Shown here in pieces: positions 191 through 47,233 of a DNA stretch of 49,573 bases. The notes below the pieces were generated by a model, which ran no database searches, had not been told where the DNA came from, and worked only from the letters and a program-made list of their open reading frames with translations. The DNA is taken from the NCBI GenBank assembly GCA_037139415.1, contig JBAXGN010000032.1, positions 1 to 49,573 on the forward strand, written 5' to 3'. The position numbers and the translations under genes are program-made. Source of the DNA: Verrucomicrobiota bacterium. GTDB lineage: Bacteria > Verrucomicrobiota > Verrucomicrobiia > Limisphaerales > Fontisphaeraceae. How positions within the stretch are numbered: the first letter of the stretch is position 1; every line of letters starts with the position of its first letter.

Positions 191-1165
191 ATGCCGGATA
201 GTGCGGTTACAACATCTGAAGCGCCAGACGCAATCCACGATGCCCTCGTGGAGGAATTCCTGCGTCATCTGGCCCATGAGCGCGGCGCTTCGATTTACAC
301 CCAACGCAATTATCGTCAGGCCCTGGTGGAGTTTCATCGCTGGCGGAGCGCGGCGCACCACCAGCCACCGCACTGGGAGGCCTTGCAATCGGATGATTTC
401 CGCGCCTTTTTGCGGCACCTCGGACGCGAGGATTTCAGCCGGGCGGCGGTGCAACTGCGCTTTTCCGCATTGCGCACCTTTTACCGGTATTTGATCCGTA
501 AAGGGTTGGTGGAAATTTCGCCCATCCGCAAGCTGGCCATGCCCAAGCCGGTCAAGCGGTTGCCCCAATTCATTTCCGTGCAGCAGATGGGGGATCTGCT
601 GGACGCGCCATTGAAGGATCTGGCGCAATTGCAAACGCACGCGGAAGCAAAGCCGGAGGCCGCTCCGTTTCTGCGCGATGTCGCCATCCTGGAAACCATC
701 TATTCGTGCGGGTTGCGGATCAGCGAACTCTGCGGGTTGCGGGTGGCGGACCTGGATGCCCGCGAACAAGTCGTGCGCGTGCGCGGCAAGGGGAAAAAGG
801 AGCGGCTGTTGCCCATTGGGGAACCGGCGCTCAAAGCGATTGAGCATTACTGGCGGGCGCTGACGCGCCGGCCGGATGGCCCGGACCCGGTGTTCTATGC
901 CAACCCGATCAAAGGGCGTCCGCTTTACCCCCGTTTGGTGCAACTGCGGTTGAAACGCTACTTGGAAATTGCCGGGTTGGACCCGAATCTGACGCCCCAC
1001 AAACTCCGCCACAGCTACGCCACCCACCTGCTCAATGCCGGGGCGGATTTGCGCAGCGTGCAGGAATTACTGGGCCATGCGCACCTGGTCACCACGCAAG
1101 TTTACACGCACGTCTCCACCGAACGGCTCAAACAGGCTTATGATGCGGCGCATCCCCGGGCCTAA
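191..1165 (+). CDS. xerC: Tyrosine recombinase, XerC/XerD family
   Basis: Site-specific recombinase of the type that resolves chromosome dimers at dif. The 324-residue protein has an N-terminal SAM-like DNA-binding domain (about residues 15-105) and a C-terminal catalytic domain. All catalytic residues are visible: R176 in CGLRISELCGL, K200 in RGKGKKER, H270 and R273 in HKLRHSYATHLL, H296 in LLGHAH and nucleophile Y305 in TTQVYTHV. The end, YDAAHPRA, is typical of XerC, but XerC versus XerD is not settled from sequence alone. I chose ATG 191 because an AGG lies 8 nt upstream; GTG 185 is the in-frame alternative. The length matches chromosomal Xer proteins rather than phage integrases, and no att-like repeats or phage genes lie nearby, so a housekeeping role is inferred. 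Confidence 0.93.
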   Translation: MPDSAVTTSEAPDAIHDALVEEFLRHLAHERGASIYTQRNYRQALVEFHRWRSAAHHQPPHWEALQSDDFRAFLRHLGREDFSRAAVQLRFSALRTFYRYLIRKGLVEISPIRKLAMPKPVKRLPQFISVQQMGDLLDAPLKDLAQLQTHAEAKPEAAPFLRDVAILETIYSCGLRISELCGLRVADLDAREQVVRVRGKGKKERLLPIGEPALKAIEHYWRALTRRPDGPDPVFYANPIKGRPLYPRLVQLRLKRYLEIAGLDPNLTPHKLRHSYATHLLNAGADLRSVQELLGHAHLVTTQVYTHVSTERLKQAYDAAHPRA

Positions 1166-1187
1166 TCGACGGGTGGGAACCGGGCGC

Positions 1188-1820
1188 TTATTTCACCAAG
1201 TTGTTCTTAATGGCATAGCGGACCAGCGCCGCCGTGGTATCCAGGCCCAGCTTCTCCAACAAACGGGCGCGGTAGGTGCTGACGGTTTTGACGCTAAGCG
1301 AAAGTTCTTCGCCGATTTCAGATACCGCCTTGCCCGCCCCCATCAGGCGCAACACTTGAAACTCACGGTCGGAAAGGGCTTCCACGCGCGGCGGCCCGGA
1401 GGGGTTCACGTTCTGAAGAGCCATGGCCTCAGCCATTCTGGGGCAGATATACCGCCGGCCATCCAGCACCGTGGTAATGGCCGTGCGCAATTCATCCGCC
1501 GACCCGCCCTTTTCAACATAACCCGAGGCCCCACTGCGCATGACGCGTTGCGCGAAATCAACATTCGCCGCGCCGGTGAGGAATAACACTGGCGTGGTGG
1601 GACGCTCGCGCTTGATGTCATCCAGAATATCCATCCCGCTCCGATCCGGCAAATCAATGTCCAGCAGAATCAGATCCCAGGATTGCTTGCGCACCCAGAC
1701 CATGGCCGCTTGCGCGGTCTCTGCCTCGACCACGTTCACCACGCCAAAGGTCTGGCGGACAAATTGCCCCAGACCAATACGGATAAGCGCGTGATCATCT
1801 ACGATAAGAACCTGTCGCAT
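1188..1820 (-). CDS. NarL/FixJ-type response regulator
   Basis: Two-component response regulator of 210 residues. The N-terminal receiver has the acidic pair D8/D9, phospho-acceptor D54 (ILLDIDLP), T82 and K104 (YVEKGG). The C-terminal LuxR-type helix-turn-helix (about residues 149-193, LSDREFQVLRLM through VSTYRARLLEKLGL) should bind DNA as a phosphorylation-dependent dimer. It converges with the xer gene and has no cognate kinase beside it. The kinase-rich cluster 2 kb away on the same strand is a possible partner, but that is inference. All key residues are intact, so it is expected to be functional. Confidence 0.93.
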   Translation of the reverse strand: MRQVLIVDDHALIRIGLGQFVRQTFGVVNVVEAETAQAAMVWVRKQSWDLILLDIDLPDRSGMDILDDIKRERPTTPVLFLTGAANVDFAQRVMRSGASGYVEKGGSADELRTAITTVLDGRRYICPRMAEAMALQNVNPSGPPRVEALSDREFQVLRLMGAGKAVSEIGEELSLSVKTVSTYRARLLEKLGLDTTAALVRYAIKNNLVK

Positions 1821-2070
1821 ATTCTAGTCTAACCGGGGTCAAACATACGCCATTGGTGCGAAGATTCAAGTGAATTGGCAGGCGACATGGTGGCGTGGCG
1901 GCAAGCGGCGGCGGATTTTCAAGGGCTTTCCAGGTTTCATTTCCTTACCGGATACGGCATGCGGTGCGGTGTTTGTACGATTTCAGCCTACACGCTTTTG
2001 TGTGTATGTCCCATACCATTTGGCGGTTTGCACCGATTTTAATTCCATGGCGTTGGCGTAGATTGCTTTC

Positions 2071-2808
2071 ATGAAGATGAATTTAAATAGTTGTAATCGG
2101 CCAGCGATGCAAATCAGCCGCTGGATGACCCCAATCGTCATGGGCATGGCTCTGGCGTGCTCGTCGTTTGCCGCAGCGGCGCCACAGGGATACCAGCTCC
2201 GCGCCGGGGATGTGTTGACCTATCGCGTGGAAGTGGTGCAATCGTGCAACCAGACCGCGGCGCCAGTGAGCGTGACCGTCAATGAAGAGGGGCGGATTAT
2301 TATTCCCGCGCAGGAATCAAAGCCGGGGTTCGTGGCGGTGAGTGTGCGGGGCAAAACCGTGGCGGAAGTGCGTGCCGAGGTGCGGCTGGCGCTGGCCCGG
2401 GAGTATCAAGAAACCAATGCCTTCGATCTCACGTTGACCACCAGTCACACGACCGAGCCGCAAATCACGCTTTGCGGGGATATCCAAGCCACGGTCCATC
2501 TTGATCACGGCGTCAACACCCATTTGGCCCAGGCAATCCAGTTTTTTGAACCGAGTGAGTATGCGGACCTCAAGCATGTCACCATTTCCCGGCAACAGAC
2601 GGATGGCTCGGTGCAGGTGATCCAAGTCAATGTTCGGAATGTGTTGAAAAATAAGACGCCGGATGTGGCCTTGCAATCAGGCGACATTGTTTATGTTCCC
2701 AAGACGGTTTGGCCCGCTGGCCGCATCGAGACGCTGGACAACCGGCGGATGCCCACCGCCAGTCCCCTCTTGATTTGGCCCAACCTCAGGTTGATGGCCA
2801 GCAGGTGA
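2071..2808 (+). CDS. Polysaccharide export (Wza/SLBB-like) periplasmic protein
   Basis: Exported protein of 245 residues with a long hydrophobic signal segment (about residues 17-37, ending ASFAAAA-like). It is followed by a Poly_export-type region that starts YQLRAGDVLTYRVEV and includes VTVNEEGRIIIP and VRGKTVAEVRAEVRLAL. An SLBB-like second half ends in LQSGDIVYVPKTVW. In the Wza family these modules form the outer-membrane/periplasmic part of capsule exporters. This copy is shorter than Wza (about 380 residues), has no obvious lipobox and stands alone without a Wzc kinase or glycosyltransferase operon. A specialised or orphan envelope role is possible. The family call rests on the repeated YxLRxGDVL and SGDIVYVP signatures. 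Confidence 0.7.
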   Translation: MKMNLNSCNRPAMQISRWMTPIVMGMALACSSFAAAAPQGYQLRAGDVLTYRVEVVQSCNQTAAPVSVTVNEEGRIIIPAQESKPGFVAVSVRGKTVAEVRAEVRLALAREYQETNAFDLTLTTSHTTEPQITLCGDIQATVHLDHGVNTHLAQAIQFFEPSEYADLKHVTISRQQTDGSVQVIQVNVRNVLKNKTPDVALQSGDIVYVPKTVWPAGRIETLDNRRMPTASPLLIWPNLRLMASR

Positions 2809-2842
2809 TAAGCCAGTAGTCTGGTCGTCCGCCCTGCCCCGC

Positions 2843-3562
2843 TTACTCGAATCCACGCCGGGCGGCTTCTTGCAGAATGGCCTCGGTGGCCGAAGCCCCC
2901 ACCCGCTCAACCCCCAGTTCCCGTACCGCCAGCAATTCATCCAAGGTGCGAACCCCACCGGAGGCCTTGATTTTTACCGATGGCGGGCAATGTTGGCGCA
3001 TGAGCGCGAGATGGGGCAGCGTGGCCCCCTTGTAACTGAACATGCCGTTGGCTTGTTTGACGAATCCAAAGCCCGTGGACGTCTTCACGAACGCCACCCC
3101 GATGGCCGAGCAAATTTCGCAAAGCTGGATGATGTGGGCATCCTGCAAATAGTCATTCTCAAAAATCACCTTCAGAATGGCGCCTTGCGCCACGACGCCC
3201 TCGTTCACCGCTTTGATTTCGGTTTGCACATAACCCCAATCACCGCCCAAGGCCTTGCCGATGTTGATCACCATGTCAATTTCCGTACCACCCAGTTGAG
3301 CCGCCTCCACCGCTTCCACAACCTTGTTGCGGGTGGTGCTATTGCCGTGCGGAAAACCGATCACCGGACAGACACCGGTTTCAGAGCCGGTCAAAATCTC
3401 GCGGGCCAGCGGGATGGCATACGATTTGACACAGGCGGTCGCACAGCCCAATCGGCGGGCCAGTTCGCACCCGGCGCGGATTTCCGCATCGGTCATGGTT
3501 GGATGCAACAGCGCGTGGTCAATCATTCTGGCCAGTTCGCGCACGGAAGGAGGATGGGGCAT
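2843..3562 (-). CDS. deoC: Deoxyribose-phosphate aldolase DeoC
   Basis: Cleaves 2-deoxyribose-5-phosphate to glyceraldehyde-3-phosphate and acetaldehyde in nucleoside catabolism; class I aldolase, cytosolic TIM barrel. The 239-residue length fits the short bacterial DeoC type. Catalytic residues are visible: Schiff-base K160 in FVKTSTGF, K199 in KIKASGG and D96 in EIDMVINIG. The start MPHPPSVRELARMIDHALL matches the family's conserved beginning (IDHTLL). It lies 34 bp downstream of the hybrid kinase on the same strand, so it may receive read-through. No other nucleoside-catabolism gene (deoA, deoD, deoB) is adjacent. Confidence 0.95.
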   Translation of the reverse strand: MPHPPSVRELARMIDHALLHPTMTDAEIRAGCELARRLGCATACVKSYAIPLAREILTGSETGVCPVIGFPHGNSTTRNKVVEAVEAAQLGGTEIDMVINIGKALGGDWGYVQTEIKAVNEGVVAQGAILKVIFENDYLQDAHIIQLCEICSAIGVAFVKTSTGFGFVKQANGMFSYKGATLPHLALMRQHCPPSVKIKASGGVRTLDELLAVRELGVERVGASATEAILQEAARRGFE

Positions 3563-3596
3563 AAAAGTGAGGTTGAGGTTAATCAGGATTTATAGT

Positions 3597-5738
3597 TTAC
3601 AGGTCAGTGGGAACCGAAGGAGGCCGACCATCCAGGCAATCTCGCACAATCCGGGCCAGAGTGATGGGACGGTATGGTTTGGGCAGAAAATAATTACCCG
3701 GGGCGTTGGCCATGGTTTTACCGGCCATTTCCACACTGTAGCCACTCGTAAAAACGACTTTCAAATCGGGCCGCTCAGCAAGCAGCCGTTTAGCCAGTTC
3801 CTCGCCGCTCATGCCGCCCGGCATCATCAGATCAGTTAGCAGCAAGTCAATGCTCGCCTGATGCTGCTGCCAAACAGCCATGGCTTCCGGCCCGTTATTG
3901 GCGTCAAACGTCTGATACCCAAAGCTGCGCAAAATTTCACGCACCAGCAGACGCAAGGCCGGTTCATCCTCCGCGATCAGGATGGTTTCCGTGCCCCCTG
4001 GAACACCCACAAACGAGGTGGAAGCCGTAGCCATGGTTGTGTGATCAACCATTTCGGGCAGGTAAATGCGGAAGGTGGTCCCGACATTCACCCGACTTTC
4101 CACTTCGATCCAACCTTGATGTTGCTTGACAATGCCATAGATGGAGGCCAGACCAAGTCCGGTGCCTTTGCCGACCTCTTTGGTCGTAAAAAACGGCTCA
4201 AATAAGCGGGCCTGCGTGGCTTCATCCATGCCGAGCCCGAAATCGGTGACCTGCAAACAAACGTATTTGCCCGAGCGCGCCTCCGGGTGACGGCGGGCAA
4301 CCAAGTCATCCAGCGTTTCGAGACGGGTGCTAAACACTAATTTGCCGCCTTTGGGCATGGCATCACGCGCATTGACGGATAGGTTCATGATCACCTGTTC
4401 GAGCATGCCCAAGTCCGCCCAAACATAAATCGGATGCGGGGTGAACTCACAACGTACCTGGATGTTTTCGCCCACCACTCGACTCAACATTTTCACCACA
4501 TTCCCCATCACCTCGTTCAATTCCATCGGCTCGGGGTTCATCACCTGCTTGCGGCTGAAAGCCAGTAATTGCGCGGTCAAGCGCGAGGCGCGTTCTGCTC
4601 CAGATAGAATATTTTTCACCGCCTCATTTTGTTGCGGGGGCAGGTTGGCAGCCTGCATTAGCATCGTTGCATATCCCTGGATAATGGTCAGGATGTTATT
4701 GAACTCATGCGCCACACCAGCCGAAAGCTGGCCCACCGCCGCCAAACGTTCCTGCCGCACTGCCGCCTGCTGGCTTTCGCGCAATTGCTCATTGATCTGC
4801 TGCAAATCGGTAACCAACCGGGCGTGATGCGCAGCCATCGAGATGTGCTCGCTGAGCGCCTTTAGGAACTCAATCTCATCGTCCTTGAACGCATCCACTT
4901 GGCGGCGCATGAGGGAGAGAATCGCAAAGGTCTTTCCCTCCACAGCCAAGGGAACGGCGACCGCCGAGCGAAATCCAAACCGGGCCATGTCCCGAGCCTT
5001 AGGGAGGATCTCCGTTTGTAAGTCCCGGTGATGTACAATTGTCCCGTTTAGACATGGTTGCAGGTCGGTCATGGCCAGAGGAATGGCTGTGGACGACATC
5101 CCGATCTGATTACTGACGACCTCGCTGTGCGGCCCGTGCGCCACCAACCGCAGTGATTGTTGCCCCGAGTCGTAATAAAACACGCGGCCCAAATCAATCG
5201 CCAAATGCTCTTCCAGATGGGCTAGGGCCACCTCGAAGATGCTGACCATGTCCTGCCGCTCCGCGATGGCGCGGGTAATCTGATTCAGCAGACTGATGCG
5301 CAGGAATTGCTGGCGCAGGCGCAATTCGCTCTGCCGCAGCGCTTCCGCCGCCCGATGCCATTGCAGCGAATAACGGATCGCACGCTCCAGTTGCGCGGCG
5401 TCCAAACCGCTCTTGACCAGGTAATCCGAGGCACCCGCTTGCATGGCCGCCATGTCCACCTCGCGATCCCCCTGCCCGGTGAGAAGAATAATGGGGATAC
5501 GAATGCCTTCGCTCCGGGCCGTCCGTAACAGATCCAGCCCGTTTGTCGCTCCCAAACGATAATCACAAAGACATAGGTCCACTTCTTCGCGGCGTAACAC
5601 CTCCAGTCCTTCCGTTCCGGTTCGTATCCAGCGAACATTAAACCTTTCCCGCTCCACTTCCTGCAGCAAGTCCCTCGTGATGAGGTAATCATCCTCATCA
5701 TCATCAATTAATAATATCCTGATGGAAATGGGCGGCAT
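3597..5738 (-). CDS. Hybrid sensor histidine kinase (REC-GAF-HisKA-HATPase-REC)
   Basis: Cytoplasmic multi-domain kinase of 713 residues with no membrane segment. Order: N-terminal receiver (about 6-125, acidic cluster D12-D14, phospho-acceptor D59 in LCLCDYRLG, K110), GAF domain (about 150-308), HisKA with H345 in GVAHEFNNILTIIQGY, HATPase_c with N-box VIMNLSVNARDAM and G-boxes TDFGLGMD and GKGTGLGLASIYGIV, and C-terminal receiver (about 585-705, LLLTDLMMPGG). The layout suggests a phosphorelay in which the N-terminal receiver takes an upstream phosphate and the C-terminal one stores or drains the kinase's own. It is the last gene of a minus-strand cluster (kinase, receiver, receiver, hybrid kinase) and starts 1 bp after the preceding gene's stop, so translational coupling is likely. 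Confidence 0.95.
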   Translation of the reverse strand: MPPISIRILLIDDDEDDYLITRDLLQEVERERFNVRWIRTGTEGLEVLRREEVDLCLCDYRLGATNGLDLLRTARSEGIRIPIILLTGQGDREVDMAAMQAGASDYLVKSGLDAAQLERAIRYSLQWHRAAEALRQSELRLRQQFLRISLLNQITRAIAERQDMVSIFEVALAHLEEHLAIDLGRVFYYDSGQQSLRLVAHGPHSEVVSNQIGMSSTAIPLAMTDLQPCLNGTIVHHRDLQTEILPKARDMARFGFRSAVAVPLAVEGKTFAILSLMRRQVDAFKDDEIEFLKALSEHISMAAHHARLVTDLQQINEQLRESQQAAVRQERLAAVGQLSAGVAHEFNNILTIIQGYATMLMQAANLPPQQNEAVKNILSGAERASRLTAQLLAFSRKQVMNPEPMELNEVMGNVVKMLSRVVGENIQVRCEFTPHPIYVWADLGMLEQVIMNLSVNARDAMPKGGKLVFSTRLETLDDLVARRHPEARSGKYVCLQVTDFGLGMDEATQARLFEPFFTTKEVGKGTGLGLASIYGIVKQHQGWIEVESRVNVGTTFRIYLPEMVDHTTMATASTSFVGVPGGTETILIAEDEPALRLLVREILRSFGYQTFDANNGPEAMAVWQQHQASIDLLLTDLMMPGGMSGEELAKRLLAERPDLKVVFTSGYSVEMAGKTMANAPGNYFLPKPYRPITLARIVRDCLDGRPPSVPTDL

Positions 5739-19823: not shown

Positions 19824-20318
19824 TCAGGAAGTCGTTTCGGCCGGGGTTGCGGTGGCGACCACCAAGGTCTTCGGAACAGCCGGTTTCGCCTCAGCCGGCG
19901 GCGCGACTTGAACGATTGCGGCGACGGGCGGAACCAGATCGCGCTTGGGGGTCGGTTTCCGTTTCACCACCTCACGCTTTGGCTTGGTAATAATAATCGT
20001 TCTTGTTTCGCTCTTCGCCACCGGCTTCGTTGGCGCCGGATTGGCTGGCTTGGGCAGGGACTTGACCGCTGGTTTGGCCGCCGGGACAGTCTTCCGCACC
20101 GCCAATGCCTGCCGCGCCGTGGCGAGTGCGACCTTGGCTTTCTTGATGGCTTTCTTGTCGTGTTTTGCCTGTTTCCGAGCCTGTTTCCATGCGGCTTTGG
20201 CACGCCGGGCGTTTTCCTTGGCGACTTTGGCTTTCTTCTCCGTCATGTTCAACTGTCGTTCGGCACTACGAATGAGACGCTGAAGCGACTCCACGGATGT
20301 TGTTTCAATCTGCACCAT
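19824..20318 (-). CDS. Lys/Ala-rich histone-tail-like protein of unknown function
   Basis: Protein of 164 residues. The first third is a predicted coiled coil (residues about 5-45, SLQRLIRSAERQLNMTEKK). It is followed by repeating Lys/Ala helices (AKENARRAKAAWKQARKQAK, KKAIKKAKVALATARQAL) and a Pro/Ala/Lys-rich disordered tail. Composition resembles bacterial histone H1-like proteins and other basic DNA-binding tails, but no defined family motif is visible, so nucleic-acid binding is only suggested by charge. Consistent reading to the stop, with codon use that looks like real coding, supports a gene. It lies upstream of rplM on the same strand, about 100 bp from the rplM promoter, and is probably transcribed separately. 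Confidence 0.6.
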   Translation of the reverse strand: MVQIETTSVESLQRLIRSAERQLNMTEKKAKVAKENARRAKAAWKQARKQAKHDKKAIKKAKVALATARQALAVRKTVPAAKPAVKSLPKPANPAPTKPVAKSETRTIIITKPKREVVKRKPTPKRDLVPPVAAIVQVAPPAEAKPAVPKTLVVATATPAETTS

Positions 20319-20774
20319 AAAAATTTACTCTGAATAGGTCTTGCCGTAACAAAAGTGGATGGCCGGGCCACTTGCGGCATGACGGTTCAATCAATAGCCT
20401 GTGAGCAATAATAATTATGTTGTGATAAAAAAGTGAGCGCATGGTACCCCCCTCACCCCACAAGTCGTCAAGATCAATACGCGCAAAAAAACTGAGGGGA
20501 AAGGAAGTCCGTCATAAAAAGAAGGCCGATTTTCAAACAGGACGAACCAGTGCTCGCGCGTCAATGCCATCTTCAATGCCATGATGATGATGGACTATCT
20601 GAGAGGACGTGATAAACATCCAAGGCTGCATCAAGCGCGTTGGTGCGTTACGAAAACCCCGAACCGCCGCTTCCAGCTTGAACCAAACCGAGCTTGATGC
20701 AGCCCTGATAAACATCAGTTTCCACAATTTTCCGCTTTTGATCGGGAGAAAAATAATGCATACTTTGCGTTGGT
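20319..20774. other. 456-bp intergenic region with a MITE-like element
   Basis: Region between the divergent Lys/Ala-rich gene and the first CNNM gene. I see no supported gene here. An open frame beginning at 20609 merely reads through the inserted repeat and into the CNNM gene in another frame. The stretch holds the short copy of the inverted-repeat element (20621-20706) about 70 bp before the CNNM start codon. The A/T-rich part at 20400-20435 could carry promoter signals, but none is convincing. Confidence 0.6.
20621..20706 (-). mobile_element. MITE-like element, short copy (86 bp)
   Basis: Inverted termini GGCTGCATCAAGC (20624-20636) and GCTTGATGCAGCC (20692-20704) are perfect over 13 bp. 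The element is bordered by a perfect 10-bp direct repeat GATAAACATC at 20611-20620 and 20707-20716, as expected of a target-site duplication. Read on the minus strand it matches both ends of the 290-bp copy at 30811-31100, with only single-base differences in each end and about 204 bp less in the middle. It has no coding capacity, so it would need a transposase in trans. Confidence 0.7.
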
Positions 20775-22028
20775 ATGACGCGGGTTGTGGTTTTATGGAT
20801 GCTCTGGCTGGGCTTTGCAGCGTCGAGCGTATTCTTCGCGCTGGCGGAGACTGCGCTTTTCTCGCTTGGCAAGTGGCAGGTTCGGCAGTTGGCGTTGCGA
20901 CATCCGCTGCGTGGCGAGCTGGTGCAAAAGCTGCTCAGCGTCCCGCATGATTTGCTGGCCACGATTGTCCTGGGCAACACGTTCTCCAACGCCTTCATGG
21001 TGGGGCTGATCGTCTGGCTGACACCGCACAACGATTGGACGATCTACCTGGTCATGGCGGCGCTGTTCGCGCTGATTCTGCTGGGCTGTGAGGTGGCCCC
21101 AAAAACCCTGGCCGTGCGTGACCCTGTGCGATGGGCGTTATTAGTGGCACCCACGGTGCAATGGCTGCTTCGTGGTAGCCGCCCCTTCCGACGGATCGCA
21201 CAGGGGCTGAATGATTTGATCGTGGCCATCGCGGCCCGGCGTGCCATCAAGCCACACACCGGCGTGACGGAAGAGGAATATCAGGAACTCGTGGAAATGG
21301 CGTTTCAGCAAGGTTCACTGGGCGCCTCGGAAAAAGAAATCATTCTGCAAATTATCGCGCTGGATCGCAAAACCGCCCACGATGTCATGCGACCGCGCTC
21401 CCAGATGGCCTGCATTGCCGACGACTTGAGCGTCGAGGGTATGATCGCTGCCGCGCGCAAGTACCGGCATAAACGACTGCCCATTTATGATGAAACTCCG
21501 GACACCATCGTGGGCATTCTGAACACCCAAGCGCTGCTTTTAAATCCCGGCGTGGATTTGGCGGAGGTGATCGAGTTCCCGTCGTGCGTGCCGGGCTCCA
21601 TGAACCTGCTGCAACTGTTCAAAAGCCTGCAAAAGCAGCAACGCGGTCTGGCCATCGTGCTCGATGAATTCGGCGGCACGGCGGGAGTGGTTTCCATGGA
21701 GGATATTCTGGAAGAAGTCGTGGGGGAAATTCGCGGAGAAGTCGAGCCGCAAGGGTTTGTGATGGAAAAGCTGGGAGAGGGCCGCTGGCGAGTCAACGGC
21801 ACGATGCGGCTGGATGATTTTCGACGGGAATATCCGGCCTTGAATGATTATCCCGGGGTGGACACCCTCGGGGGACTGGTCTGCGCGCTGGCCGAAGTGG
21901 TACCCGGCGAGGGGGAGATTTTTCAACATCATGGCTTACGGTTAAAAGTGCTGGTGGCTGACGAACGTCGTGTGCGTGAACTGCTCGTGGAAACAATCGG
22001 ACGGACACCGAAAGGAACCGCCGCATGA
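20775..22028 (+). CDS. CNNM/CBS-pair/CorC membrane protein (first of three)
   Basis: Membrane protein of 417 residues of the HlyC/CorC (CNNM, formerly DUF21) family, linked to Mg2+ or Co2+ homeostasis. Order: CNNM domain with three to four helices (about 1-180; FFALAETALFSLGKWQVRQL, LLATIVLGNTFSNAFMVGLI, GCEVAPKTLAVRDP), a CBS pair (about 200-320; HDVMRPRSQMACIADD, RLPIYDETPDTIVGILN, LAIVLDEFGGTAGVVSMEDI) and a C-terminal CorC_HlyC domain (about 330-410; VNGTMRLDDF). Overlaps the next gene by ATGA. The MITE-like insertion lies about 70 bp upstream of the start. Confidence 0.9.
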   Translation: MTRVVVLWMLWLGFAASSVFFALAETALFSLGKWQVRQLALRHPLRGELVQKLLSVPHDLLATIVLGNTFSNAFMVGLIVWLTPHNDWTIYLVMAALFALILLGCEVAPKTLAVRDPVRWALLVAPTVQWLLRGSRPFRRIAQGLNDLIVAIAARRAIKPHTGVTEEEYQELVEMAFQQGSLGASEKEIILQIIALDRKTAHDVMRPRSQMACIADDLSVEGMIAAARKYRHKRLPIYDETPDTIVGILNTQALLLNPGVDLAEVIEFPSCVPGSMNLLQLFKSLQKQQRGLAIVLDEFGGTAGVVSMEDILEEVVGEIRGEVEPQGFVMEKLGEGRWRVNGTMRLDDFRREYPALNDYPGVDTLGGLVCALAEVVPGEGEIFQHHGLRLKVLVADERRVRELLVETIGRTPKGTAA

Positions 22029-29120: not shown

Positions 29121-29205
29121 GTAACCGTCGAGCAAGGAGACTGGCAAATCCGAAATCCGAAATCCGAATTCTTTGGGTCCGCCTCCTTACCTCGGCGGCT
29201 ACGCG
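29121..29205. repeat. Outlying inverted pair of REP-like repeats
   Basis: A degenerate copy at 29121-29144 (GTAACCGTCGAGCAAGGAGA then CTGG) faces an intact inverted copy at 29179-29205 whose hairpin CCGCC/GGCGG (29179-29183 and 29194-29198) is perfect. The spacer holds three AAATCCGA-like units. Both match the repeats clustered around the transposase gene at 46.2-47.2 kb, and the paired layout resembles a BIME. It sits between the DUF4159 stop and its terminator. Confidence 0.65.
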
Positions 29206-30783: not shown

Positions 30784-30812
30784 ATTATATTCACAGTTTG
30801 ACGCAGTAACAG
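30784..30812 (-). promoter_or_regulatory. Candidate promoter for DUF4159 gene at mobile-element edge
   Basis: On the minus strand a perfect TATAAT (30784-30789) follows, after 17 nt, a CTGTTA box (30807-30812) that matches only 3 of 6 consensus -35 bases. The first two bases of that box belong to the MITE-like element. The DUF4159 ATG is about 63 nt downstream. Confidence 0.4.
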
Positions 30813-31100
30813 GGCTGCATCAAGCTCGGTTTGGTTCACGCTGGAAGCGGCGGTTCGGGGGTTCCCATGGCCGCGGAATTACCCGCAAGAAAGTGAATCC
30901 ATTTAAGCCGATTCCCTCAGCCGGATAATGATATCCTCTCCCCGAGGGAGAGGATATAGGTGAGACTTCCCCGAACAGCAGAATTTCGCTCTTTGAACCC
31001 ATGAACCTGGAAGTGAGGGTTCGTGGGGAGGGGTACGGAACCACAGACCCTGCCCACCTCGTAGTATTCGTAACGCACCAACGCGCTTGAGGCAGCCCTG
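30811..31100 (+). mobile_element. MITE-like element, long copy (290 bp)
   Basis: The left end AGGGCTGCATCAAGC and right end GCTTGAGGCAGCC then CTG are inverted repeats with one mismatch. The outer 48 bp on the left and about 30 bp on the right match the 86-bp copy at 20621-20706 with one difference each. Flanking 10-bp segments ACGCAGTAAC (30801-30810) and ACGTGGTAAT (31101-31110) agree at 7 of 10 positions, consistent with an eroded target-site duplication. The extra 204 bp inside has no credible gene but carries a perfect 12-bp hairpin at 30931-30957. It sits in the divergent promoter region of the DUF4159 and oxidoreductase genes. Confidence 0.7.
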
Positions 31101-31150
31101 ACGTGGTAATGGCTTGCCAAACATACGTTTTCAAAGGATCATCGGGCACC

Positions 31151-46236: not shown

Positions 46237-46340
46237 CCGCCGAGGTAAGGAGGCGGATTCCCCATTCCCCTTTCCACGTAGCCGTCGAGATAAGGAGACG
46301 GAGTTCGGGAATTAACGTCTAAAAATCCGTCTCCTTACCT
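46232..46340. repeat. REP cluster downstream of the transposase gene (left cluster)
   Basis: Copy 1 at 46232-46256 (CGTAG then hairpin CCGCC, 10-nt loop, GGCGG). Copy 2 at 46277-46301 (CCGTC/GACGG). A partial inverted copy at 46327-46340 (CCGTCTCCTTACCT). Copies 2 and 3 face each other across a 25-bp spacer, as in a BIME. The stem's inner pair changes from C-G to T-A between copies, so the hairpin is conserved by compensation. The cluster occupies the gap between gatB and the transposase stop. Confidence 0.8.
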
Positions 46341-46433
46341 TCCAAGATACAGAAGTGTTGAAAAAATGCAGAACATGTTGAATATAAGTATCTTTTGCCC
46401 CAGCAAGCGCGGAGCGATTGATTTGCTCGACGG
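46341..46433. other. Short spacer between left REP cluster and the transposase stop
   Basis: About 90 bp of A/T-richer sequence with no gene, clear terminator or further repeat copy that I can see. It may hold the 3' end of the transposase transcript. Confidence 0.4.
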
Positions 46434-46988
46434 CTACATGGGTGGTTCGGCTTCCCGGGTGGTCACATAGAACTTCCAGTAGCGCTCCCAGAATTCTTCA
46501 TCCAGGGGATGCATCCGGGGATAGCCCGGCACCATTGCGCCGCTGAACGGCCACTTTCGGGCAGCGGCTACCAACTTGGCGCGCGCCGGATTTTCCAAGA
46601 CATAGAAGCATGTGGCGGCAAACGCATTTCGGCGGCGCTCTTCCTCTCGCAGCACATGGTCATGCGGTTGGGGTTGCCACTCCCGACCTTGGCCAAGCGC
46701 AGGCTTCAACTCGGCGCGCAGGAACTTCATTGCATTGAGTTGGTCGCTCTCCCGGCGCAATCCCATCCAAACCAAATGCAAGTGATCTGGCATCAGGCAA
46801 TAGGCCGGGCACCAGACCATATAGCGCACCGCCGTATGCAGCAGGATTTCACGGAAGGTGGCGTGAAACGCGGATGTCAGCCATCCGCGTGAACGTTCCT
46901 CCAAGGTGTTGGTCCAAAGAACCACCGCGTGCCCTTGGTAATACTGCCGTTCCAATCGCGGCAGGTTGCTTTTAGGTTCAAATGGCAT
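46434..46988 (-). CDS. REP-associated tyrosine transposase (RAYT, Y1/IS200-like)
   Basis: Y1-type single-strand transposase of 184 residues. The HUH metal site is in YCLMPDHLHLVWMG (H69, H71) and the probable nucleophile is Y129 in TCFYVLENPARAKLV, the pattern in which RAYTs carry YxxxNPxRA. I chose ATG 46988 (MPFEPKSNLPRLERQYYQG); the frame stays open to 47147, but that extension only translates the 36-bp REP repeats into NPSPYLGGY units. RAYTs cut and join single-stranded DNA at REP hairpins. REP-like hairpins flank it on both sides (46232-46340 and 47042-47233), so this is a complete REP/RAYT locus. No IS ends or target duplications were seen. Confidence 0.88.
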   Translation of the reverse strand: MPFEPKSNLPRLERQYYQGHAVVLWTNTLEERSRGWLTSAFHATFREILLHTAVRYMVWCPAYCLMPDHLHLVWMGLRRESDQLNAMKFLRAELKPALGQGREWQPQPHDHVLREEERRRNAFAATCFYVLENPARAKLVAAARKWPFSGAMVPGYPRMHPLDEEFWERYWKFYVTTREAEPPM

Positions 46989-47041
46989 GGTCGTACCGTA
47001 GCCAAGCCCATGGGGAAAGCGGAAGAAAAAAATACACCAAG

Positions 47042-47233
47042 CGTAGCCGTCGAGGTAAGGAGACGGATTCCCTTTCCCGTAGCCGCCGAGGTAAGGAGAC
47101 GGATTCCCTTTCCCGTAGCCGCCGAGGTAAGGAGGCGGATTCCCCATTCCCCTTCCGCGTAGCCGCCGAGATAAGAAGACGAAGTCCGCGAATTCAGGTT
47201 AAAAAACTCCGTCTCCTTACCTCGACGGCTACG
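47042..47233. repeat. REP cluster upstream of the transposase gene (right cluster)
   Basis: Direct copies start at 47042, 47078 and 47114, an exact 36-bp period (25-bp REP plus a GATTCCCTTTCC-like linker). A degenerate copy lies at 47158-47182 and an inverted copy at 47209-47233. The last two face each other over a 26-bp spacer and can form one long imperfect hairpin. Stem status: CCGTC/GACGG intact at 47042, C-A mismatch at 47078, CCGCC/GGCGG intact at 47114, degenerate at 47158, intact in the inverted copy. It lies between the transposase and kinase starts, in their divergent promoter region. Confidence 0.82.

Follow-up and report, generated by a model that had tools for sequence, protein, structure and literature searches.

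Locus and coordinates of the short copy

The window, that is, the whole stretch of DNA analyzed here (49,573 nucleotides of contig JBAXGN010000032.1 from a Verrucomicrobiota bacterium), contains a short repeated element next to a CNNM/CBS/CorC_HlyC gene, which is a neighbor outside the element and is followed by a second CNNM gene. On the other side of the element, the L13 and S9 ribosomal genes are located on the opposite strand. The element ends 68 bp ahead of the CNNM start codon, in agreement with the distance of about 70 bp given in the initial annotation. The coordinates of all features are listed in Table 1.

Table 1. Features of the two element copies in the window and of the neighboring CNNM gene
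Feature	Position	Strand	Remark
Left target-site duplication ATAAACATC, short copy	20612..20620	.	same 9-mer at both edges; length fixed by family
87-bp MITE, short copy	20621..20707	+	alignment with other copies
Left terminal inverted repeat CAAGGCTGCATCAAGC	20621..20636	+	15/16 vs right repeat
Right terminal inverted repeat CAGGGCTGCATCAAGC	20692..20707	-
Right target-site duplication ATAAACATC, short copy	20708..20716	.
CNNM/CBS/CorC_HlyC gene	20775..22028	+	3′ of short copy; outside the element
Left target-site duplication ACGCAGTAA, long copy	30801..30809	.	7/9 vs right side
Long copy (291 bp), same family; ends CAGGGCTGCATCAAGC / CAGGGCTGCCTCAAGC	30810..31100	+
Right target-site duplication ACGTGGTAA, long copy	31101..31109	.

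The sequence GATAAACATC occurs at 20611–20620 and again at 20707–20716, separated by a gap of 86 bp, and the 13-mer GGCTGCATCAAGC at 20624–20636 (plus strand) forms a perfect pair with its inverted partner at 20692–20704 (minus strand). The initial annotation had described an 86-bp element with 13-bp perfect inverted ends and a 10-bp target duplication. Its letters and inverted ends are indeed present, but the borders had to be redrawn: because the other copies align with the 16-bp ends CAAGGCTGCATCAAGC and CAGGGCTGCATCAAGC, the element measures 87 bp and is flanked by a duplication of 9 bp. The G of the right-hand GATAAACATC is the final base of the terminal repeat and lies outside the duplication. 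Flank identity over 15 copies of the host genome is 0.75 at 9 bp and 0.27 at 10 bp, which rules out a 10-bp duplication for the family and indicates that the extra matching G (and T) 5′ of the left 9-mer is due to chance. The left end of the short copy starts with CAAGGC, the right end with CAGGGC.

An element of 87 bp leaves no room for a transposase gene, and only mechanical open reading frames overlap the two window copies. The short copy retains about 34 of the first and about 51 of the last bases of a 225/226-bp form, and its internal junction occurs a single time in the genome at up to three mismatches. Taken together, these features indicate that the short copy arose from a longer one by internal deletion, which may have preceded or followed insertion. 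Within the window, exact inverted pairs of 13-mers at most 160 bp apart were found at two places only, the short copy and 47087–47224. A longer relative in the window had been proposed as well, and this copy was recovered (Table 1). The window also carries the repeats GTAGCCGTCGAGGTAAGGAGACGGA, both direct and inverted, at 46241–47224 and at 29179; they belong to the type of GTAG-tagged palindromes that PMC3733652 describes.

Copy number, target-site duplications and distribution

Searching the host genome (7.9 Mb) for the exact 13-mer gave 33 matches, compared to none for the reversed-pattern control. With a 15-bp end and up to two mismatches, 133 matches were obtained versus seven in controls, and a BLAST search of the host genome with the long copy returned 63 pieces. 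Two-ended copies were defined by ends 60–700 bp apart, no more than four mismatches over both ends and 30 bp of flank. By this definition, the fetched loci contain 15 copies from the host genome and 41 from other records. The host copies span 87–457 bp, and nine of them are 225 or 226 bp long. The search for the 13-mer with inverted partners suggested in the initial annotation thus revealed a multi-copy family.

Duplications were counted excluding one-ended copies, copies at contig ends and a 3.6-kb unit described below (L124). The 9-bp flanks match at seven or more positions in 12 of the 15 host copies and in 33 of the 41 copies elsewhere (perfectly in four and 18, respectively), while mismatched flank pairs reach this level in 0 of 210 (host) and 3 of 1640 (other records) cases. 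At 9 bp, flank agreement in the other records is 0.82; in the host and the other records, agreement at the remaining lengths from 5 to 13 bp ranges from 0.21 to 0.36, and mismatched flank pairs agree at 0.24–0.26 of positions. No peak was observed at 5–8 or 10–13 bp among the two-ended copies. Copies without a clear duplication, which the initial annotation had named as evidence against its reading, were limited to three in the host genome (L019, L022 and L044, with at most four of nine matches) and eight of the 41 elsewhere. The flanking repeat differs from site to site rather than recurring in every copy and thus does not belong to the element. The view of a MITE-like, non-autonomous element with a duplicated target therefore holds: the short copy is a transposase-less MITE of a multi-copy family, and the 87-bp copy as such is ordinary. 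We also looked for an empty site, and found that the DNA of relatives at the short-copy site aligns solely within the CNNM gene; no contiguous empty site was recovered at a further copy, L113.

Across the order, the 16-bp end is found at up to one mismatch in 69 of 320 genomes, mostly with one or two matches each, a number that may be due to chance. End-rich genomes are the host (69 matches), G179 (80), G286 (22), G264 and G272 (19 each), G097 (18) and G287 (15), with 0 or 1 match of the reversed-pattern control in each of them. Two genomes of the same family as the host (G001 and G002) have no 16-bp end at this threshold. Among 146 relatives, no full-length match to the 226-bp form was detected, and the partial matches mostly cover an interior motif near positions 62–107. 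In other genera, elements with the same ends and 9-bp duplications have unrelated interiors that are often built of other inverted repeats. G179 contains a 155-bp type in about 40 copies; its congeners G178 and G053 mostly carry the interior of this element without the family ends, and with L113 as query most matches in these two genomes cover the interior alone. In an alignment of 20 copies (L244–L263), several rows from G178 show another outer inverted sequence, CACTGC..TTGAATTAAG. A scripted check found both ends of this outer pair in one of the seven rows tried, so a second end set in G178 is a lead only.

The exact 16-mer is present in 35 stretches of viral contigs, and the 18-mer in 89 stretches of the genome_contigs collection. 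Among the 80 of the latter listed, 69 are titled Verrucomicrobia, Verrucomicrobiia, Pedosphaera, Limisphaerales or Akkermansia, and 11 carry other titles, compared to seven or eight expected by chance as estimated from the collection size. A tblastn search with two partner transposase frames against the viral stretches and the genome_contigs loci gave a match in L318 only. Records titled Akkermansia muciniphila (L267, L318 and others; CAMAUY, CAMDJH) carry the MITE family. Contig 289 of CAMDJH is DNA of G287, which is placed in the order of the window, and the Akkermansia muciniphila title is therefore probably wrong.

A much larger unit was observed in G097 (L124, positions 482–4109). It measures 3628 bp and has exact 16-bp family ends and identical 10-bp flanks, AACGAAGAAC. 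One of its frames encodes an exosortase (PF09721), and another, of 183 aa, has an end that resembles a PEP-CTERM signal. No transposase was found among its frames of at least 90 aa.

Candidate helper transposases and alternative explanations

Two relics adjoin the exact family ends. In G026, CAGGGCTGCATCAAGC is located about 100 bp ahead of a degraded DruA-like frame, which scores 16.5 bits in Pfam (below the cut-off of 27) and is 43–59% identical to longer DruA frames over the aligned part. In G287, the last stop codon of an ISAs1 relic ends at 1085, and 68 bp on, at 1153, lies a right end that is exactly CAGGGCTGCATCAAGCTC. A search of the 320 genomes with the G026 peptide revealed DruA frames in 53 of them, and related ends are found upstream of DruA frames in G117 (CAGGGCTGCATCAATT), G055 (CAGGGCTGATTCAAGA), G154 (CAGGGCAGATTCAAGA) and G288 (CAGGGCAGTTTCAAGA). 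Loci whose upstream sequence was shorter than 330 bp or repeated were left out. In the 74 DruA loci used, CAGGGC occurs anywhere in the 330-bp upstream stretch of 32, compared to eight of 74 on the other strand. It lies 203–222 bp ahead of the HHYL-type codon of DruA, a range picked post hoc, in 26 of these loci and is missing from this range in 48.

DruA and ISAs1 are encoded in one frame at L234 (G036) and L182 (G055) according to Pfam and NCBIfam, with an ISAs1 part that matches NF033564 above its cut-off; the DruA domain (PF14236) is N-terminal in the partner transposases. DruA–ISAs1 elements bounded by terminal inverted repeats (TIRs) have ends of the CAGGGC type, with duplications of 9 or 10 bp at their edges. 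The L234 unit (1936 bp) has ends that are alike at 13 of 16 positions and the duplication GCGAACCCG (9/9), and the L388 unit (G097, 2296 bp) is flanked by TGTGTTCGA (9/9). The L228 unit (G055, 2476 bp) has identical 16-bp ends and no flanking duplication. In L234, L388, L318 and L228, the ISAs1 reading moves to the +1 frame in the overlap between frames. This frame change, which has C6 runs close by (for instance in TTTCCCCCC), could reflect programmed frameshifting or decay.

The initial annotation had also suggested looking for an autonomous transposon with the same ends; our search yielded none with exactly these ends, both of them intact. Within the stretches fetched, the exact end was found in none of 30 DruA loci and, apart from L401/L411, in none of 25 ISAs1 loci. 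A 1467-bp end pair on host contig C28 was rejected as an autonomous element, as it holds unrelated frames. Two DruA–ISAs1 halves at contig ends of the host genome (L156 and L392) have the ends CAGGGCGTTTGGYTGGCAG and a 10-bp duplication. The end of contig C160 and the start of contig C47, the latter with ISAs1 pieces of the host genome, carry the flank TGGCAGCGCC on both sides; these halves look like one DruA–ISAs1 insertion. Duplications of 10 rather than 9 bp were found for the host DruA–ISAs1 element, for the copies of G152 and for the L124 unit. Since the sole DruA–ISAs1 element seen in the host has other ends, the helper may have been lost from this genome, be missing from the assembly or have escaped recognition.

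Based on these observations, we propose, with a probability of roughly 85%, that the family consists of non-autonomous elements moved in trans by a DruA (PF14236)–ISAs1 DDE transposase that generates 9-bp duplications, and that the 87-bp copy derives from the 225/226-bp form. The 16-bp ends (consensus CAGGGCTGCATCAAGC) would serve as binding and cleavage sites for a transposase supplied in trans. This protein would bind the ends and excise the element in a cut-and-paste manner, and insertion via a 9-bp staggered cut would give rise to the 9-bp duplication. Loss of about 139 internal bases would convert the 225/226-bp form into the 87-bp copy.

The helper could instead be a different transposase that duplicates 9 bp, for example of the IS4, IS1 or IS256 type, in which case the DruA–ISAs1 links would be coincidental neighbors. 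The lack of an intact helper with the exact ends and the presence of further transposases in the host genome favor this explanation. Nevertheless, we consider it unlikely, given that the exact 16-bp ends adjoin a DruA-like relic and an ISAs1 relic in two different genomes and that related ends and DruA frames are separated by a constant distance. In addition, among the host transposases of the family covered by the search (PF01609), none of the five loci has such an end pair. Much less weight still is given to a REP/REPIN-type palindrome that a RAYT-type transposase or recombination has spread, chance accounting for the flank matches. The copies are short and palindromic, most have two ends and their fold is stable; these features and the GTAG-type palindromes elsewhere in the window would fit such an origin, but the flanks vary by site, and 9-bp duplications accompany 45 of 56 two-ended copies compared to 3 of 1850 mismatched pairs. 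REP/REPIN palindromes are not known to have target-site duplications, and a REP/REPIN identity is contradicted by those found here; we regard it as next to impossible.

A further explanation concerns function rather than origin: the inserted element could regulate the CNNM gene, either by a promoter change, as considered in the initial annotation, or as a leader hairpin. Its position 68 bp ahead of the CNNM start would fit this, and both of its strands fold better than all of 200 shuffles (z of –5.1 and –5.8). On the other hand, this hairpin is a by-product of the inverted orientation of the terminal repeats, a scan of 20300–20800 for a single promoter type gave no sigma-70-like match, and other copies of the element are found at unrelated sites. 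A regulatory role therefore appears very improbable, and it would be compatible with the transposon reading in any case.

Implications and comparison with known systems

These data provide defined end sequences and duplication lengths for DruA–ISAs1 transposons. With the ends defined, the role of the DruA domain, which is also found in Druantia phage defense, becomes testable on short DNA substrates, and the combination of conserved ends with unrelated interiors offers a simple case for non-autonomous elements gaining DNA. We tentatively suggest, as a speculation we would not favor at present, that DruA is the end-recognition domain of an ISAs1-type transposon group and naturally binds the MITE ends. 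A small set of conserved ends, composed of CAGGGC and a group-specific part, would then allow a single class of helper to mobilize many unrelated interiors across the order. If true, the movable interiors would include the 3.6-kb unit with the exosortase gene, and the DruA of Druantia defense would be related to, or derived from, a transposon protein that binds ends.

Target duplications of the ISAs1 family are 8–10 bp long. The system described here resembles ISAs1 insertion sequences in that the partner transposases match the NF033564 profile and that duplications of 9 bp are formed. It differs in that the MITE encodes no transposase, and in that the partner frames have an N-terminal DruA domain, with the C-terminal part of the ISAs1 domain located in another frame.

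Bacterial MITEs, as described in PMC10969869 and PMC3733652, are 50–500 bp long, have inverted ends and direct repeats at their edges, lack a transposase, occur in multiple copies and are presumed to be mobilized in trans. The window family shares its small size, inverted ends, direct repeats, copy number and lack of a transposase with them, whereas its ends are common to several genera while the interiors are not, and its helper class would be DruA–ISAs1. PMC10969869 makes no mention of ISAs1. Similar to the Tn3-family TIME elements, which according to PMC4133298 are transposase-less and have conserved ends with foreign DNA between them, the window family shows varied interiors and includes the 3.6-kb exosortase unit. 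The Tn3-type ends of TIMEs are 38 bp long with 5-bp duplications, in contrast to 16 bp and 9 bp here (PMC4133298).

For the Druantia side, DUF4338 is described as a GNAT-like acetyltransferase domain in PMC10853773, and DruA is listed with unknown function in PMC7251935. No paper dealing with Druantia and ISAs1 together was found among the open-access papers searched; as this search was made without ISfinder, we do not claim that DruA–ISAs1 elements are undescribed. The partner transposases start with the same domain as that of Druantia DruA (PF14236), but in them it is fused to a transposase within TIR-bounded elements.
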